From: Bacillota bacterium
GTDB taxonomy: Bacteria > Bacillota > UBA5301 > Bu52
Assembly (NCBI GenBank): GCA_014896355.1
Contig: JADBKO010000019.1
Location: 1 to 64,000 of the forward strand
DNA: 64,000 nucleotides
Reading direction: 5' to 3'
Shown here one piece after another: positions 20,516 to 28,619 of the stretch. Position 1 is the stretch's first letter. Every line of letters begins with the position of its first letter. Made by a program: the position numbers and the translations under genes. The notes beneath the pieces were generated by a model that saw only the letters and a list, made by a program, of their open reading frames with translations, searched no databases and was not told the DNA's origin.

Positions 20516-20845
20516 CCGCCTCTCCTCCATGCCGGCCTGCGGGCGCAGCCGGCCGTTTCCGCCCAATGCCCTGCCGGAGTCCACGCGCTGTGCGCCCGGG
20601 TCCCCGGCCCATCGATGCCACACCATCGATGCCACACCCATTCAGACCTCCGCCGGCGGCACTTATTCTCTGGCGACTGGCAGGAACTGGGGGACGGCAA
20701 GCGAATACTCCTCCAAACTCCGCCCGGTATTGAGGGGATGTTCACTTCGTTACAAAAATGTTAACCCGCCCCAGCGTATAAGCCAAGCCAATTTGGACAT
20801 ATTCCGCAAAGGATACCCGTGCCACAAGGAGAGCGAACGCTTGGC

Positions 20846-23146
20846 ATGGCTGATACGGAACTCCGTGCATCTGTGGTCGAAGTTCCGGCGCAAGCAGGTG
20901 GACAAGTCTTTGTCGGAGTGGACGTAGGGTCCGCCAGCGTCAACGTCGTCGGCGTGGATGAGGAGGGGCGGATTGTCGGCCAGCCCCAATATGTCCGTAT
21001 CGCGGATTTCCCCACGCCCACCGACGCGTTGAAGGCTGCCTTCGGGCGTTTCCAGGCTTCCCTCCCGCCGCAGGCGGCCATCGCCGGCGTGGGCACCACC
21101 GGAAGCGGCCGCGAGCTGAACCGCCACATCATCGGCGGAGACGTGAGCCGTACGGAGATCTTCGCCCATGCCGCCGGGATCCACCAGCTGGTGGCCACAG
21201 GCCAGGTCCGCGACAGCCAGGGAAGGGTCCTCAACGATGTGGGCACCGTCATCGAAATCGGCGGGCAGGATGCCAAAATTATCGTCTTCGACGAGCGAGG
21301 CGTGCCGGCCTATTTCAACATGAATTCCATCTGTTCGGCGGGCACGGGAGAATTTCTGGTCCAGATCGCCGACGACGCCGGGATCCCCATCGCGGATTTC
21401 GGGGCTCTGGCGCTCCAGGCCGTCCATCCTGCGCGCATTGACGCCACCTGCACGGTATTCTCCAAGCGCGATTTCCGCCACCTCACCCAAAAAGGGGTGC
21501 CCCTGCCGGACCGGCTGGCAGGCATCTGCGACGCCATGGTGCACAACTACCTCACCAACGTGGCGGCGGCCACTCCGCTGCGGCCTCCCGTGATTTTCCA
21601 GGGAGGCGTGGCCGGCAACGCGGGCATGCGGGCGGCCTTCGAACGGCAGCTGGGCCTGCCGGTGACAGTGCCTCCCTACCATGACGTGGTAGGGGCCTTC
21701 GGCATGGCGATTCTGGTGCGGGACCTCCACCAAGGGCGTGCGGGCTGGAGCACCCAATTCCGCGAGGATTTCCTGGAGCGGCGCTTTGACAGCCGCATCC
21801 GGTATTGCTCCGGATGTCCCAACAGCTGCGAAGTGACCCTGCCGCTGGAAATGGGGGCAGACGGGACTCCCCAAGTGCTGGACTATCTGGGCGGCCGTTG
21901 TGAGCGTTCCCATGATGTCCGCAATCTGCGGGACCAGCCGCCAGCACAGGTGCACCTGCTTCTGCCGGTGGTACGGAACCCGGGTACACCGGCTCCGGCG
22001 CCGTTTCAGCGCCCGTCACGACGGCCTCGCCGCAGCTCGGAGGGCCTCTATTTCGCCGGTATCGACGGGGGGTCCCGCGGCACAAAATACGCCTTGATCC
22101 GCAGCCGGGGGCCGGAGGATCCGGTCGAGGTCCTGGCCGTGGGCAGCGTGGATACGGCAGGAGACGCCATCGGCGCCATCTGTAAAGCCCTGGCCGCGCT
22201 GGAGGCGGCTTTGCCGGCTGGCGCCGTGCCAGCCGCCGTGGGCACCACCGGCAGCGCCGGCGAAATGGCCCATGACCTGATCTGCAGCCGGGACGACAGC
22301 GCCGATTACCGCTCCACGGAGATCCTGGCCCACTACACGTGGGCTTCCTATTGGCGCCCGGATGTGGGCACCATCGTGGACATCGGCGGCAATGACTCCA
22401 AAATCGTGACGGTGAAACCCACAGGCCTGGATTTCCGCATGAACGACAAATGCGCCGCCGGTACGGGCTCGTTTTTGGAGGCCATCGCCCGGCGCTTCGA
22501 TCTACCCATCGAACGCTACGCCGAGGTGGCCCTGAGCTCCGAGCACCCGGCCCGCATTTCCGGGCGATGCGCGGTTTTCGGCGAGTCCGACGTGATCCAC
22601 AAAGCGCGGATGGGCTTTCCCATTCCGGACCTGCTCATGGGGGTCTGCCAGAGCATCGCCAAGACCTATTTTTCTGACGTGGCCAAAGGCGCCCGCCTGA
22701 GGCTGCCTGTGGTGGCCCAGGGCGGCACGTTCCTGAACCGGGCGGTGCAGGTGGCTTTCCGCCAGATCACAGGCCTTTCCGAAGCGGAGTTCGTGGTACA
22801 CCCGGATCCCCGCTATGTACTGGGGGCCGGAGCCCTGGGAGCGGCGCTCTTGGCCCGCAGGCGCTACGAGGAGGGAGCGGACACGGCGTTCAAAGGTTTC
22901 GCCGCCATCCGGCGCCACCACTACCGTACCGTCTCCCTGGACTGCCGGCACTGCGGCCGCTACTGCCCGGGCGTGGTGGCTTTGCTGGAGGATGGCCGCC
23001 CCATTGCGGGATACAAATCCATCGACTGCCCGCGGGGCCTGTTTGACGGCTTCATCCGTTTCGAAGAGGACCGGCGGCTGATCGCCGCGCTGGTTCAAGA
23101 ACAAGAAAGATCGCTGGAAGGAAGGCAGACTGCCGATGCCCGCTGA
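20846..23146 (+). CDS. Double BadF/BadG ATPase: CoA-dehydratase activase component
   Basis: A roughly 766-residue protein with two ASKHA (BadF/BadG/BcrA/BcrD) ATPase domains, about 20-300 and 398-665. Each has the nucleotide motif (GVDVGSASVN; GIDGGSRGTK) and the cluster-binding Cys pair (SICSAGTGEF with ATCTVF; DKCAAGTGSF with GRCAVF), so a [4Fe-4S] cluster is expected. Two more Cys groups, YCSGCPNSC (about 320) and DCRHCGRYC (about 698), match the long activases of clostridia. Such proteins drive ATP-dependent low-potential electron transfer. ATG at 20846 follows AGGAGAG by 12 bases; a GTG at 20819 precedes that site. It overlaps the next gene by 11 bases. Confidence 0.88.
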   Translation: MADTELRASVVEVPAQAGGQVFVGVDVGSASVNVVGVDEEGRIVGQPQYVRIADFPTPTDALKAAFGRFQASLPPQAAIAGVGTTGSGRELNRHIIGGDVSRTEIFAHAAGIHQLVATGQVRDSQGRVLNDVGTVIEIGGQDAKIIVFDERGVPAYFNMNSICSAGTGEFLVQIADDAGIPIADFGALALQAVHPARIDATCTVFSKRDFRHLTQKGVPLPDRLAGICDAMVHNYLTNVAAATPLRPPVIFQGGVAGNAGMRAAFERQLGLPVTVPPYHDVVGAFGMAILVRDLHQGRAGWSTQFREDFLERRFDSRIRYCSGCPNSCEVTLPLEMGADGTPQVLDYLGGRCERSHDVRNLRDQPPAQVHLLLPVVRNPGTPAPAPFQRPSRRPRRSSEGLYFAGIDGGSRGTKYALIRSRGPEDPVEVLAVGSVDTAGDAIGAICKALAALEAALPAGAVPAAVGTTGSAGEMAHDLICSRDDSADYRSTEILAHYTWASYWRPDVGTIVDIGGNDSKIVTVKPTGLDFRMNDKCAAGTGSFLEAIARRFDLPIERYAEVALSSEHPARISGRCAVFGESDVIHKARMGFPIPDLLMGVCQSIAKTYFSDVAKGARLRLPVVAQGGTFLNRAVQVAFRQITGLSEAEFVVHPDPRYVLGAGALGAALLARRRYEEGADTAFKGFAAIRRHHYRTVSLDCRHCGRYCPGVVALLEDGRPIAGYKSIDCPRGLFDGFIRFEEDRRLIAALVQEQERSLEGRQTADAR

Positions 23147-25667
23147 ACGAAAGCCCAAAGTCGGCATGGCCAACGCCTTCATCACCCATTACCCTTCGGG
23201 GCAAGTCATCCTGCGTTTTCTGCAGGAGGCCGGCGCAGACGTGATCCGCACGCCGCGCACCACCCCGGAGATCCTGCAGGCGGCCACCACTCTGGCCAGC
23301 GCCGATTTTTGCATCCCCTTGCGGGTGTATGTGGGACACATCTATTATCTCTTGCAGAAACATCCCGACCTGGATTTTCTCGTGGCGCCGGCCATTTGCC
23401 GGGAGCGGCGGCGCGGCTCCGCCTGCTCCAAGTACCGGGACCCGGCAGGTGTGGCTGTGCGCTCCATCACCGGCGCAGTGCCATACACCCTCAGCCAGGC
23501 CCGGGGAGCATTTCGAACCTGGGCCATGCGGAAACTGGAGCGGTCCTTCGGCGGAGGCGGACGCGCGGTGGCCAGGTCCCCCTTGCACATCCCGCCGGTC
23601 CTGGCTCCCAACATCTGGTCGCTGGAAAAGGGGGCCATGCGCAATGTCTGTCTGCGCTTGTATGCCGACATTTTCCACATTTTCCGGCCCGAAATGGCGG
23701 CGGCGCAGCTGCTGCCTGCGGCCCTGCGGCGGAAGGTCGGCTTCCTCTCGCGGGCGGAGGCGGCCTTCGAGCAGGCGTATGCTGCAGTGGTGAACGGGGA
23801 AGCCAGCCCGGTTTGGCTGGACTTGAGCGGGCAGGCCAGGCAGGACGGGCAGGCGCTGCCGGCGGGCTCGCCCAGCCGGGCCGGCACGCAGCCGGAGCCT
23901 CCCCGCCTGGCGTTGATCGGCCGCGAATACCTGCTGGAGGATCCGTTGGTCACGTCGGATATCCGCCGCTTCTTCCGCCAGCACGGAGTCCAGGTCATCA
24001 CCCCCCGCGACGTGCCGGAGACGGTGCTGGAAAAAGCCATGGGCGGAGTGGCTGGGTTTTATGAGTCCCACCAGCGCTACGAGGCGTTCATCAAGGTGGT
24101 GGGACCCCTGGTGGACGGGGTGGTGCTGGTGGCCAGCTTCGGCTGCCACCCGGACGGGTTCATGATGGAGTACCTGCTGGACCAAGCGCGGGCGCTGGGC
24201 CGGCCGGCCTGGTTATTCCGCTATGATGAGCAATCTGGCAGCGCCGGCTTTCTGACGCGCTACGAGACCGTGCTGGGATTCCTGGAGGCCCGGCGGGACG
24301 AACGGGTGAAAGAGCAGGCGAAGGCCGCAGCCTGCAAACCGGTCCCGGCGCAGAACACCCCGGCGGCGCCGGCTCCCGCCTCCCCCAAAATACGGCATCG
24401 GGCGTCGGCGCCGCCTGCCCCGGGGCCGGACCTGCGGGAACCCCTGATCATCTGGCCGTACATGAACGAAATCGTAGACCTCACCGTGGAAGAGCTCTTC
24501 TTCCAAGCGGGGCTGGCCCGCTATCTCCGTCCGCCGGCCCCTGCCACCCAGGCCACGCTGGCCCTGGGAGACATCAAGTACACGGAAACCTGCTCTCCCT
24601 TTGCCATCACCACCGGGAGTCTGCGGGAGTCTGTGGCCCGGGTCCTGGCGGAGCTGAAGGAAGAGGCGCGCCGGACCGGCCAGCCGGTTAAGCCCCGCCG
24701 CATCATTATGCTGCAGGGGCGGGGCGAGGGCCCGTGCACCTACGGTTGGTATGCCATCGCCCAGGCCCAGGAACTGCCGCAGCTTTTCGCTCAGGAGCTG
24801 GCAGAGGGGGGACACACCCTGGAAATGGCCAGCGTGGGTTTCCAGGGCGTGCAGGAATTCCTGACCCGCCTGGCGGAGCTGGGCGACAAGGAGCGGCTGA
24901 AAGGCCTAGTGGACTACCTGAGTGCCCCGCCCGGGCAGTCGCGCTGGCGCAAACTGCGGCTCACCCTGGGCTTGGCCCGCTCCATCTGGAGCCTGGCCCG
25001 CCCCACCTGGGCCAAATTGAAGGCAGCCGAAGACCTGCGGGCGCGATCGTTGATTCTACGCGCCCACGAAGTGCGGCGGGGGGATACCACAGCCCGGTAC
25101 CAGGAGGCTTTGGACCTGCTGCGGCAGGCGCATACGCTGCCGGCCATCCGGGCGGCGCACAAAGCCGGAGTCCGGCGGTTGGAATCCGTCCCGCGCGACC
25201 ACGAACCGAAGCCCCGGGTGGTGGCCGTGGGCGAAATCTACGTGGCGCTTTCCTCTTTTGCGAACCGGGGCACCGTGGAAAACCTGATGGGCCGCGAGGG
25301 TTTGGAGGTGGTGGAAGGCGTTTCGGTGCGGACATTTCTGCGCTTCACGCTGCTGGAATTCCTCCGCCGTTTCTGGGTGGGGCTTCCCGGCGTCCGGCAG
25401 GCCGTGCACTGGCTGGCGCGGCACAACATCTATCTATGGCGCCAGCAGGTGCGGGGGCCCGGGGCCCGGCCGTTTCTCACCCGCGAAGTGGGCGGCGATG
25501 GGCTCCTATCCGTGGCGGAAGCCCGGCATCACGTGGAAGATGGCGCCGACGGCATCGTGCATATGTTCCCCTTCAAGTGTATGCCGGAAGGCATTGCCAA
25601 GGACGCCCTGACGGAGATGGCCGATTTCTATGGCGTCCGTTACTTGCCGCCGAGCGTGTGCCCATGA
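23136..25667 (+). CDS. CoA-dehydratase/activase large component (DUF2229 plus HgdB-like), C-terminus probably lost
   Basis: An 843-residue protein. The N-terminal DUF2229-type part (about 5-110) has SADFCIPLRVYVGHIYYLL and a Cys pair near 90-97. An HgdB-like half with VASFGCHPDGF and DEQSGSAGFLTRYETVLGFL lies near 325-385. A second related module (about 445-840) has YTETCSPFAITTG, GRGEGPCTYGWYAIAQ and MFPFKCMPEG. In long homologues this is fused behind two BadF domains; here it is a separate overlapping gene. It stops soon after CMPEGIAKDALTEMADFYG, before the final DExxGxxTRxEAF-like motif normally expected. An inverted hppA fragment begins 20 bases later. Confidence 0.85.
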   Translation: MPAERKPKVGMANAFITHYPSGQVILRFLQEAGADVIRTPRTTPEILQAATTLASADFCIPLRVYVGHIYYLLQKHPDLDFLVAPAICRERRRGSACSKYRDPAGVAVRSITGAVPYTLSQARGAFRTWAMRKLERSFGGGGRAVARSPLHIPPVLAPNIWSLEKGAMRNVCLRLYADIFHIFRPEMAAAQLLPAALRRKVGFLSRAEAAFEQAYAAVVNGEASPVWLDLSGQARQDGQALPAGSPSRAGTQPEPPRLALIGREYLLEDPLVTSDIRRFFRQHGVQVITPRDVPETVLEKAMGGVAGFYESHQRYEAFIKVVGPLVDGVVLVASFGCHPDGFMMEYLLDQARALGRPAWLFRYDEQSGSAGFLTRYETVLGFLEARRDERVKEQAKAAACKPVPAQNTPAAPAPASPKIRHRASAPPAPGPDLREPLIIWPYMNEIVDLTVEELFFQAGLARYLRPPAPATQATLALGDIKYTETCSPFAITTGSLRESVARVLAELKEEARRTGQPVKPRRIIMLQGRGEGPCTYGWYAIAQAQELPQLFAQELAEGGHTLEMASVGFQGVQEFLTRLAELGDKERLKGLVDYLSAPPGQSRWRKLRLTLGLARSIWSLARPTWAKLKAAEDLRARSLILRAHEVRRGDTTARYQEALDLLRQAHTLPAIRAAHKAGVRRLESVPRDHEPKPRVVAVGEIYVALSSFANRGTVENLMGREGLEVVEGVSVRTFLRFTLLEFLRRFWVGLPGVRQAVHWLARHNIYLWRQQVRGPGARPFLTREVGGDGLLSVAEARHHVEDGADGIVHMFPFKCMPEGIAKDALTEMADFYGVRYLPPSVCP

Positions 25668-25686
25668 GCATCTCGGGTCTAAGGGA

Positions 25687-25960
25687 ACAGCCCGATGGCC
25701 ACCAGGAGAATGGTCACCAGGTAGCCCCAGTTCAGGGCGTTCATGGGCGGTTCGTCGTTTTCTGCACGCGGACGCTGAGAGTATTGCGCAGGATAGAGGC
25801 GATGAACTCACGGAGCGGGCCACCAGCGGAAACAGGATACCGTTCACGCCGAAGATCGGGAAGAGCGCGATGCCCAGGATCATGGCTCCGATGTTTTTCC
25901 GCCGTGGACTCGTTGTGGCGCCACGGCCCGCGCGACCTGCCTGGGCAACATGCATACCCG
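25687..25960 (-). pseudogene. Inverted, decayed partial copy of hppA
   Basis: Read on the minus strand, this stretch matches hppA from about 27226 to 27475 (codons about 229-311). It encodes NIGAMILGIALFPIFGVNGI and LFPLVARSV, as hppA does, and then several small indels break the frame. The identity is high in the middle and fades near 25930-25960. It has no start, and its orientation is opposite to hppA, which begins 580 bases away. It is a duplicated remnant, not a gene. Confidence 0.88.
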
Positions 25961-26540: not shown

Positions 26541-28619
26541 TTGCAACCACATATGGGCATGCTGGCGCTCATTCCGACCGCCGGCGTTGCCGCGCTCATC
26601 ACCAGCATTTATCTCATCTTGTATGTCGTGAGGCAACCCAAGGGCGACGAAAAGATGCAGGAGATCGCCGGGGCCATCCGGGAAGGCGCACTGGCCTTTC
26701 TGAGCCGCCAGTATCGTACCATCGGCATCCTGGCCGTCGTGGTGGCCCTCATCCTGCTGGTAGCAGTGCGGGGACCGCAGGGATGGCACACCGCCATCGC
26801 CTTCCTGACCGGGGCGCTGGCTTCCGCCATCTCCGGCTATATCGGAATGTACACCGCCGTGACAGCCAATCTGCGGGCTGCAGCCGCCGCCCGGCGCTCT
26901 CTCAATGACGCCCTGCGGGTGGCCTTCCGCGGCGGAGCCATCACCGGCCTGGCTGTGACCACCCTCAGCCTTCTGGGTGTCACGGCGATCTTTTATGCGT
27001 ACGGCGGCGCCTCCCATCCGCAGGAAGCTCCGCTTCTGATCGTGGGCTTCGGCTTCGGTGCCAGCTTCGTGGCCCTCTTCGCCCAACTGGGCGGCGGGAT
27101 CTACACGAAAGCCGCCGACGTAGGGGCGGATCTGGTCGGCAAAGTGGAGGCGGGAATCCCGGAGGATGATCCCCGCAACCCGGCGGTGGTGGCCGACCTG
27201 GTCGGCGACAACGTCGGCGACTGCGCGGGCCGTGGCGCAGACCTCTTTGAGTCCACGGCGGCGGAAAACATCGGAGCCATGATCCTGGGCATCGCGCTCT
27301 TCCCGATCTTCGGCGTGAACGGCATCCTGTTTCCGCTGGTGGCCCGCTCCGTAGGGGTCATCGCCTCCATCCTGGGCATTCTCAGCGTCCGCGTGCGGCG
27401 GGACGACGAACCGCCCATGAACGCCTTGAACCGGGGCTACCTGGTTACCATTATCCTGGTGGCCATCGGGCTGTTCTTTGTGACCCGGGAGATGCTCAAT
27501 GGCGGCGGCAAGGTCGACTACCTCTACTTCTACGGTGCCGCCCTGGTGGGAGTTCTGACCAGCTACATTTTCGTCTGGACGACCCAGTACTACACAGAGT
27601 ACCGCTACCGGCCCGTGCGGGAAATCGCGCAGGCGTCCACCACCGGTCCGGCCACCAATATCATTGCCGGTGTATCGGTGGGCTTTGAAAGCACGGCCAT
27701 CCCGGTGGTCGTCATGTCCGCGGCCATCCTGGCGGCCTACTGGCTGGGCAGCATGGCCCTGCCCGGCGGCGGCCTGTACGGCACAGCCGTGGCCACCATG
27801 GGCATGCTCTCCACCGTGGCCTACGTGCTGGCCATGGACACGTATGGCCCCATTACGGATAACGCCGGCGGCATCACGGAGATGAGCGGCGCTCCCGAGG
27901 AAGCCCGCGAGCGCACGGACCGGCTCGATGCCAGCGGCAACACCACCAAGGCTCTGACCAAGGGGTACGCGGTGGGGTCCGCAGCGCTGGCGGCGTTCCT
28001 GCTGTTTTCCGCCTACATCGACGAAGTGAAACACCTGCTGGGCTTGGCGCCGGATCATCCCTTCCCCATTGATATCGGCCAGCCCAAGGTGTTCGTCGGC
28101 GCCTTCATCGGCGCCATGTTGGTGCTCTTGTTCAGCTCCACGGCCATCCGGGCGGTGGGGCGCGCAGCTCAGGTGGTGATCCAGGAGGTCCGGCGCCAGT
28201 TCAGGGAAGTGCCGGGCATCATGGAGGGCACCGGCCGGCCCGAGTACGGCAAATGCGTGGACATCGTCACCGTGGGCGCCCTGAAGCAGATGGTGATCCC
28301 CGGCCTGGTGGTGGTGGTGACTCCGGTGTTGGTCGGCGCCATCCTGAAGGCAGAGGCGGCGGCGGCGTTCCTGATGATTGGCACCATCGTCGGCGTCATC
28401 ATGGCCCTGTTCCTGAATAACGGCGGCGGCGCCTGGGACAACGCCAAGAAATTCATCGAAGCGGGCAACCTGGGCGGCAAGGGCTCCGATTCGCATAAAG
28501 CCGCCGTGGTAGGCGATACGGTGGGGGATCCCTTCAAGGACACGGCAGGCCCCAGCTTGCACGTGCTGGTGAAGCTGCTCTCCACCATCACCCTGGTGCT
28601 GGCCTGGCTGTTCATCTAG
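26541..28619 (+). CDS. hppA: Membrane-bound proton-pumping pyrophosphatase
   Basis: A 692-residue integral membrane pyrophosphatase with about 16 helices. It couples PPi hydrolysis to ion pumping. The substrate site is DLVGKVEAGIPEDDPRNPAV followed by DNVGDCAGRGADLFES; the C-terminal acidic motif is DTVGDPFKDTAGPSLHVL. In GNTTKALTKG a Lys occupies the position that marks the K+-independent, H+-pumping class (K+-dependent ones have Ala). A TTG start at 26541 fits the AAGGAGGG six bases upstream; ATG at 26553 is the alternative. A long structured leader precedes it and a strong terminator follows. Confidence 0.95.
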   Translation: MQPHMGMLALIPTAGVAALITSIYLILYVVRQPKGDEKMQEIAGAIREGALAFLSRQYRTIGILAVVVALILLVAVRGPQGWHTAIAFLTGALASAISGYIGMYTAVTANLRAAAAARRSLNDALRVAFRGGAITGLAVTTLSLLGVTAIFYAYGGASHPQEAPLLIVGFGFGASFVALFAQLGGGIYTKAADVGADLVGKVEAGIPEDDPRNPAVVADLVGDNVGDCAGRGADLFESTAAENIGAMILGIALFPIFGVNGILFPLVARSVGVIASILGILSVRVRRDDEPPMNALNRGYLVTIILVAIGLFFVTREMLNGGGKVDYLYFYGAALVGVLTSYIFVWTTQYYTEYRYRPVREIAQASTTGPATNIIAGVSVGFESTAIPVVVMSAAILAAYWLGSMALPGGGLYGTAVATMGMLSTVAYVLAMDTYGPITDNAGGITEMSGAPEEARERTDRLDASGNTTKALTKGYAVGSAALAAFLLFSAYIDEVKHLLGLAPDHPFPIDIGQPKVFVGAFIGAMLVLLFSSTAIRAVGRAAQVVIQEVRRQFREVPGIMEGTGRPEYGKCVDIVTVGALKQMVIPGLVVVVTPVLVGAILKAEAAAAFLMIGTIVGVIMALFLNNGGGAWDNAKKFIEAGNLGGKGSDSHKAAVVGDTVGDPFKDTAGPSLHVLVKLLSTITLVLAWLFI

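Follow-up and report, generated by a model that had tools for sequence, protein, structure and literature searches.

A two-gene activase-reductase pair of a Bacillota bacterium as a separate branch of the PlsA/Ger-like group, with a proposed role in the developing spore

Genes A and B lie side by side in a 64,000-nucleotide stretch of a Bacillota bacterium genome (GTDB lineage Bacteria; Bacillota; UBA5301; Bu52; GCA_014896355.1, contig JADBKO010000019.1, positions 1 to 64,000 of the forward strand), called the window below, and raise the question of whether they are a giant ATP-driven enzyme broken in two or a system of their own, and what such a system would do. In the original prediction they were taken for the split form of a giant CoA-dehydratase activase. 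Both open reading frames (ORFs) were found at the place and on the strand described, with an 11-nucleotide overlap and the modules as noted, and giants of about 1400 residues do occur in the same phylum (1410-1481 amino acids). The pair, with two activase domains (Act-Act) in one gene and two reductase halves (Red1-Red2) in the next, nevertheless appears to be no fragment of these, forming by its sequence a separate and undescribed branch of the known PlsA/Ger-like group. On balance we consider it probable that A and B make up a two-component, ATP-driven, low-potential reductase of the BCR/HAD type, a third branch of its kind, which is deployed in the developing spore.

The reductase halves carry the first part of this answer. 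In a Red1+Red2 tree of 53 rows and 705 columns, unrooted, drawn on the giants and holding no characterised dehydratase, the pairs form one clade (24/24 rows, support 100/100, stem length 2.38), the giants a second (12/12, 100/98) and sets of three separate genes, whose Red1 and Red2 we take to be the proteins named COG3580 and COG3581, a third (17/17, 93/76). Identity to the window pair in the Red halves is 0.31-0.58 for other pairs, 0.20-0.29 for the three-gene sets and 0.16-0.21 for the giants. Grouping with a characterised system, which would have spoken against a new reductase, was checked against giants that are anonymous proteins, assigned to PlsA/Ger by size (1410-1481 amino acids) and module order alone, and from these the pair stands separate. 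The suggested ATP-driven low-potential reductase holds up, its branch containing no characterised protein in our trees.

The activase tree (101 rows) unites domain 1 of 25 pairs (100/100) and, likewise, domain 2 of 25 pairs (100/100), and the three-gene activases, giant domain 1 and, weakly, giant domain 2 each form a group too, with the deep order left open. Approximately unbiased (AU) tests do not reject the joining of pair and giant first domains (p 0.429), of both second domains (0.433) or of pair domain 1 with giant domain 2 (0.542), and an ancient activase duplication common to pairs and giants would be compatible with them. A cysteine motif, C-x2-C-x3-C-x(n)-C, follows the second activase domain in giants, but the first in pairs. 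The reading of the pair as a split giant was rejected on the Red tree and this motif placement, and the pair is better seen as an old branch beside the PlsA/Ger giants and the three-gene family. In the window the break separates Act-Act from Red1-Red2; the only split giant that we saw (L093) is divided into Act-Act-Red1 and Red2 (971 + 415 amino acids).

Two further claims about the giants have to be revised. According to PMC12838417, the plasmalogen synthase PlsA has the domain order Act1, Act2, Red1, Red2; one gene, 4,248-4,920 bp long, encodes it in E. faecalis, L. cremoris and B. longum, and an operon of two genes, plsA-plsR, does so in C. perfringens. Division into two genes is therefore no novelty by itself. 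The glycerol ester reductase Ger is described in PMC11150832, PMC8788747 and PMC13274423 as proteins of 159 and 153 kDa in D. alkenivorans with a homologue in T. maritima. The substrate had been called open; for the giants it is less so, these being PlsA/Ger-like by size and architecture, and PlsA and Ger being enzymes that reduce lipid esters to ethers.

What B is follows from its fold more than from its sequence. It matches DUF2229 (PF09989) at 58.7 bits (cut-off 29.4) and gives no match to PF06050 (HGD-D) at E 0.001, and a search of PDB sequences with B or its profile returned no relative, the best E values of 0.67 and 0.011 belonging to unrelated proteins, so that a fold comparison was needed. 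Single-chain AlphaFold models were built from alignments in which the window protein and its counterparts at the other loci made up 23 rows; the mean predicted local distance difference test (pLDDT) score of A was 87.2 and that of B 80.9. Foldseek ranks 1-12 in the PDB for B go without exception to 2-hydroxyisocaproyl-CoA dehydratase, DCCP, MbdON or BzdNO chains, and VIA-align placed B residues 2-392, the Red1 half, on HadBC, BzdNO, MbdON and DCCP with Z 9.7-13.5 against at most 9.0 for unrelated folds; the predicted HgdB-like part of B is thus under the Pfam threshold and clear by fold. The VIA-align rows contain no separate Red2 match, the aligned part being the Red1 half, and a HadB-like nature of Red2 is suggested by weak HGD-D matches of the three-gene Red proteins (20.1-24.5 bits, under the 28.4 cut-off) together with the common cysteine pattern. 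By its model, B would itself be the dehydratase- or reductase-like partner, a single chain that combines a pair of HadB-like halves, and not an accessory of the activator. Across the 128 contigs (2.6 Mb) of the genome from which the window comes, PF09989 matches only at gene B and a search with A found no second activase at E 0.001, which leaves no separate dehydratase system of such kind.

A is the activase, with two PF01869 stretches (225.8 bits, cut-off 31.5) and a TIGR00241 match (257.7 bits, cut-off 125.4), and its best fold matches, at the top Foldseek ranks, are the activators MbdQ, HadI, HgdC and DCCP-R. Cys163/202 and Cys536/575 are invariant in 23/23 pair rows; presumably they correspond to the ligands of the bridging [4Fe-4S] cluster in HgdC. 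The first four-cysteine motif of A, after domain 1, is also invariant in 23/23 pair rows, and the second is missing in five short relatives (f12 type). A motif of this form was found in 16/16 three-gene activases and, by the strict pattern, after the second activase domain in 9/12 giants, the strict form being missing in the other three with all activase domains scanned, and it was absent from the 12/12 small HgdC-type activases examined. Appended to an activase, it seems to mark the wider PlsA/Ger-like group, and in A it is possibly an extra iron-sulfur or zinc site.

The cysteines of B bear on its metal centres. Those of Red1 (Cys59/97/337) are present in 55/55 rows and those of Red2 (Cys486/534/815) in 53/53, across pairs, three-gene sets and giants. 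The catalytic [4Fe-4S] cluster of BzdO is held by three cysteines (Cys95/128/380) and the double cubane [8Fe-9S] of BzdN by six, according to PMC11971306. With three invariant cysteines per half, as in BzdO and HadB, two single [4Fe-4S] cubanes are expected in each B, one in each half, and not the double cubane to which the original prediction had likened it. That B is a double-cubane protein reducing small molecules, as DCCP chains among its top fold matches might suggest, is hardly credible to us, since the cysteine count falls short of the six of BzdN, and dehydratase and BzdNO chains match B as well or better; a cluster of the DCCP type was rejected on that count.

The HadB-like fold and three cysteines per half would also fit a catabolic (R)-2-hydroxyacyl-CoA dehydratase, for instance of lactate or 2-hydroxy acid fermentation, and neighbours encoding Etf and an FAD-linked, glcD-like dehydrogenase at 6/26 pair loci could be read in the same way. 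This we regard as very unlikely: the ten proteins scanned around the window pair include no CoA-transferase, CoA-ligase or acyl-CoA dehydrogenase, B lacks a PF06050 match, the Red tree, in which no characterised dehydratase was included, puts the pair beside PlsA/Ger-like and spoVA-linked forms, and at the f12 loci a sigma-G-like promoter lies between glcD and A.

For the reductase that we prefer, a mechanism can be sketched from the BCR/HAD superfamily, whose chemistry is established. A would amount to two HgdC-type activases joined covalently into a pseudo-dimer. It would take single electrons from reduced ferredoxin or flavodoxin, and its ATP hydrolysis would drive them at very low potential into B and its [4Fe-4S] clusters, in the way known from HgdC/HadBC, DCCP-R/DCCP and MbdPQ/MbdON. 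B would be a covalent pseudo-heterodimer of two HadB-like halves with one three-cysteine cluster each, of which one would do the chemistry, reducing or dehydrating the substrate by a radical step.

The link to the spore is most evident in the three-gene relatives. We sampled 41 genomes of 39 families. Three-gene Red genes are present in 31 of them, SpoVAD passes its cut-off in 35, and 29 have both; of these 29, 22 carry SpoVAD no more than 6 kb from a three-gene Red gene, and in the other seven the two are on separate contigs. The order at several loci is a sigma-F-type gene, spoVAC, spoVAD, spoVAEB, a gerA-like gene, Red1, Red2, Act and a lysA-like gene, the neighbours having been verified by Pfam in example loci. 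Three-gene sets by spoVA are seen, for example, at L037, L040, L094 and L096-L100. The COG3580/COG3581/activase set is probably an unrecognised sporulation gene set. Among the pairs, spoVAC-spoVAD-spoVAEB lies downstream of A-B on the same strand and within 30 nucleotides at L066, and spoVA just downstream on the opposite strand at L071; SpoVAD is present in 23/26 pair genomes, that of the window included (1.6e-136). The tie of the pair branch and its three-gene relatives to sporulation is the surprising part of our results, and we found no published record of it: searches for literature linking DUF2229, COG3580, COG3581 or 2-hydroxyglutaryl-CoA dehydratase activators to sporulation returned none, and the main texts of the sporulation papers PMC3738446, PMC3533761 and PMC4433262 hold 0 occurrences of these proteins. 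PMC3044671 and PMC8760340, in the parts accessible, concern other genes.

A second line of evidence comes from promoters, for which the 250 nucleotides upstream of the first activase motif were scanned at 25 loci (L060 left out) against 200 dinucleotide shuffles, with sigma-F/G consensus strings of B. subtilis. The strict sigma-G pattern is found upstream of A at five loci (L074, L075, L078, L079 and L080), the whole f12 subtype; the shuffles averaged 0.055 hits and never exceeded 1, and the reverse complement gave 0/25. In their aligned upstream regions both boxes and the ribosome-binding site are conserved while the flanks have diverged. These five loci carry short-form pairs following etfB-etfA(Fer4)-glcD, with the sigma-G-like promoter their own. 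A sigma-F-like pattern is found at 3/25 loci (the window, L068 and L070; shuffles mean 0.165, reverse complement 0/25). An earlier scan of windows at ORF starts had given 4/25 against 2/514 control ORFs (Fisher 5e-5) and 3/25 against 4/514 (0.003), and 3/20 against 6/514 (0.003) once thinned by lineage, with controls drawn from a greedy ORF list in which many starts are unsure. At giant loci, 0/15 ORFs over 960 amino acids have a sigma-F/G-like pattern.

Several observations weigh against a role in the spore. The window pair is not near spoVA, the pair being on contig C40 and SpoVAD on C36; spoVA adjacency was seen at only 2/26 pair loci, and SpoVAD is common in the phylum anyway (35/41 over cut-off). 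The three pair genomes without it are a 78%-complete metagenome-assembled genome (MAG), an Armatimonadota MAG and a Planctomycetota MAG. With spoVA-linked three-gene relatives 20-29% identical to B, the link to the pair would be indirect. The strict sigma-G pattern is missing at 20/25 loci and the sigma-F-like one at 22/25, and the five sigma-G loci are mutually related and count as one lineage. The window site is imperfect, the consensus strings are those of B. subtilis, and it was spotted by eye before the scan; being imperfect and noticed beforehand, it adds little. Finally, the truncated C-terminus of this B may mean that the copy is inactive or misassembled. At the level of sequence the proposal is backed by the parts themselves, by cysteines that do not vary, by the separate clade, by relatives linked to spoVA and by the promoter footprint of one subtype; deployment of the pair branch in the developing spore, as in the three-gene branch, and forespore expression in this organism would be in keeping with these.

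With four modules and six cysteines the same as in the giants, and 18/26 pair genomes devoid of both giant and three-gene activase, the pair could instead stand in for the giant as a vegetative PlsA/Ger-type enzyme, making plasmalogens or alkyl ether lipids during growth with no spore role. We judge this unlikely. The pair is far from the giants, either half of the window's B being 0.16-0.21 identical to them, and its clade is another one. Giants are also less bound to spore formers, SpoVAD over cut-off accompanying them in 8/13 genomes versus three-gene sets in 29/31, and a sigma-F/G-like site, which pair and three-gene relatives do show, occurs in none of the 15 giant-locus ORFs.

Regarding the substrate, a lipid ester or another spore-envelope molecule is the most likely candidate by analogy, the PlsA/Ger kinship pointing to an ester-linked lipid and the spore context to a component of the envelope. 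A bolder version, that in endospore-forming Bacillota a forespore-expressed, ATP-driven radical reductase, encoded by the gene pair in this organism and by the spoVA-linked three-gene set in others, turns phospholipid esters of the spore membrane into ethers, we put forward only as a tentative possibility that may well prove wrong. Literature searches on plasmalogens in spores gave nothing on point, and PMC8982180, in the portion available, deals with ether lipids of vegetative cells. A spore-specific reductase could also act on a compound of the dipicolinate or lysine pathway and not on a lipid. The spoVA genes serve dipicolinate uptake, and several three-gene sets sit between spoVA and lysA, though the spoVA-lysA order is found in Bacillus too, which makes proximity to lysA a weak argument. 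We think this rather improbable, dipicolinate synthesis taking an oxidation and not an ATP-driven reduction, and the window pair being without such neighbours among the ten proteins scanned. The five f12-type pairs and L071 do adjoin etfB-etfA-glcD, and PMC4959285 reports that EtfA acts as dipicolinate synthetase in C. perfringens.

The coordinates of the pair and its parts are collected in Table 1. Upstream, the flank is an M48 peptidase gene on the opposite strand, and downstream follow genes for a proton-pumping pyrophosphatase (hppA) and a LytR-CpsA-Psr protein; among ten neighbouring window proteins scanned, no pathway context was recognised.

Table 1. Features of the A-B gene pair in the window.
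Feature	Position	Strand	Remarks
Gene A, fused double BadF/HgdC-type activase, 766 amino acids	20846..23146	+	ATG 20846, stop at 23146
Gene B, fused Red1-Red2, BCR/HAD-like, 843 amino acids	23136..25667	+	ATG 23136; C-terminal tail of relatives absent
A/B overlap, 11 nucleotides	23136..23146	+	
Activase domain 1 of A (residues ~20-290), with Cys163 and Cys202	20903..21715	+	
C-x2-C-x3-C-x23-C motif after domain 1 of A (Cys321, 324, 328, 352)	21806..21901	+	predicted small beta element
Activase domain 2 of A (residues ~400-672), with Cys536 and Cys575	22043..22861	+	
Second four-cysteine motif of A (Cys700, 703, 707, 728)	22943..23029	+	
Red1 half of B (DUF2229/COG3580-like), invariant Cys59, Cys97, Cys337, predicted HadB-like fold	23148..24311	+	
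Red2 half of B (COG3581-like), invariant Cys486, Cys534, Cys815	24435..25655	+	
Sigma-F/G-like site GTATA-N14-GGACATATT / GTATA-N17-CATATTC	20776..20804	+	70 nucleotides upstream of the ATG of A; weak
AAGGAG, probable ribosome-binding site of A	20826..20831	+	14 nucleotides before the ATG, rather far; by eye
Inverted partial hppA copy directly after B	25665..25933	-	87% identical, gapped; hppA part 27223-27498

This copy of B ends about 50 residues before its full-length relatives, at the junction with the inverted hppA fragment, which may be a misassembly or real damage or rearrangement; the original prediction did not note this. The missing C-terminal tail was not found elsewhere in the window's assembly, and one could suppose that the pair is decaying here, B having been truncated by a rearrangement and the system being non-functional in this genome, with the conserved tail gone and the hppA fragment following the stop. 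To us this is quite improbable, as the reading frame stays open across 766 + 840 residues with neither activase domain damaged and none of the six cysteines lost, and the junction could be an assembly error in a draft of 128 contigs. The conclusions about the branch rest on relatives of the window pair and not on this copy.

Fused B proteins were found in 10/398 genomes drawn across the phylum (E 1e-30) and at 24 loci in a named genome collection, where the carriers are Thermaerobacter-, Symbiobacterium- and Limnochordales-like MAGs, Vulcanibacillus modesticaldus, Tepidibacillus decaturensis and other Bacillota, as well as single MAGs of Armatimonadota and Planctomycetota. The pairs of the latter two (L063 and L073), whose MAGs lack SpoVAD, may be due to horizontal transfer or misbinned contigs. 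In the 26 pair genomes, the pair is accompanied by a three-gene activase in five, by a giant in three and by neither in 18. Apart from etf-glcD (6 loci) and spoVA (2 loci), recurrent neighbours of the pair are few and confined to near relatives. Other arrangements were also seen: a complete genome (G309; L052, 9328-14216) has a double activase with Red1 and Red2 as separate genes, a gene order of intermediate kind, and in Tepidibacillus decaturensis (L070, 5758-7979) the double activase reads as two overlapping ORFs of 329 + 426 amino acids, which may be a natural separation or a frameshift. Separate Red genes in the one and separate activases in the other would fit a stepwise fusion.

DUF2229/COG3580-COG3581 proteins are common in anaerobic Bacillota under uninformative names, and our data sort them into PlsA/Ger giants, a spoVA-linked three-gene set and the gene pair, with ties to sporulation in the three-gene set and the pair. 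If this is true, a costly low-potential radical enzyme belongs to the spore programme of many anaerobes; we know of no such enzyme in that of Bacillus subtilis. Should the ether-lipid version apply, the pair would make ether lipids specifically for the spore, as a sister of the vegetative plasmalogen synthase PlsA/Ger, and would help to render the inner membrane of the spore impermeable. The question raised is whether spores contain ether lipids or another product of the reductase, and whether permeability and resistance depend on it.

Compared with known systems, the pair shares with the PlsA/Ger giants the modules Act-Act-Red1-Red2, the six invariant cysteines and, in 9/12 giants, the cysteine motif after an activase domain, but it consists of two genes broken between activase and reductase, is 16-21% identical in the Red halves, forms a separate clade, carries the motif after domain 1 and not 2, and has a spore-linked context. 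With the three-gene set it has in common the activase motif (16/16), the six cysteines and, at L066 and L071, the spoVA context; that set differs in its single activase, in its three genes in another order, in a Red identity of 20-29% and in its own clade, and the window pair in its double activase, its fused Red1-Red2 and its SpoVAD on another contig. MbdONPQ and BzdNO(PQ) resemble the pair in their paired activases and paired HadB-like subunits, MbdQ, MbdON and BzdNO chains being among the best matches, and BzdO in its three-cysteine cluster; their subunits are separate, however, BzdN holds a six-cysteine double cubane, and no aromatic degradation genes are near the pair among the ten window proteins scanned. 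HadBC with HadI/HgdC and DCCP with DCCP-R likewise combine an ATP-driven activase with a HadB-like fold. Their activase is a homodimer, whereas that of the pair is fused and bears extra four-cysteine motifs, which the 12/12 small activases lack.

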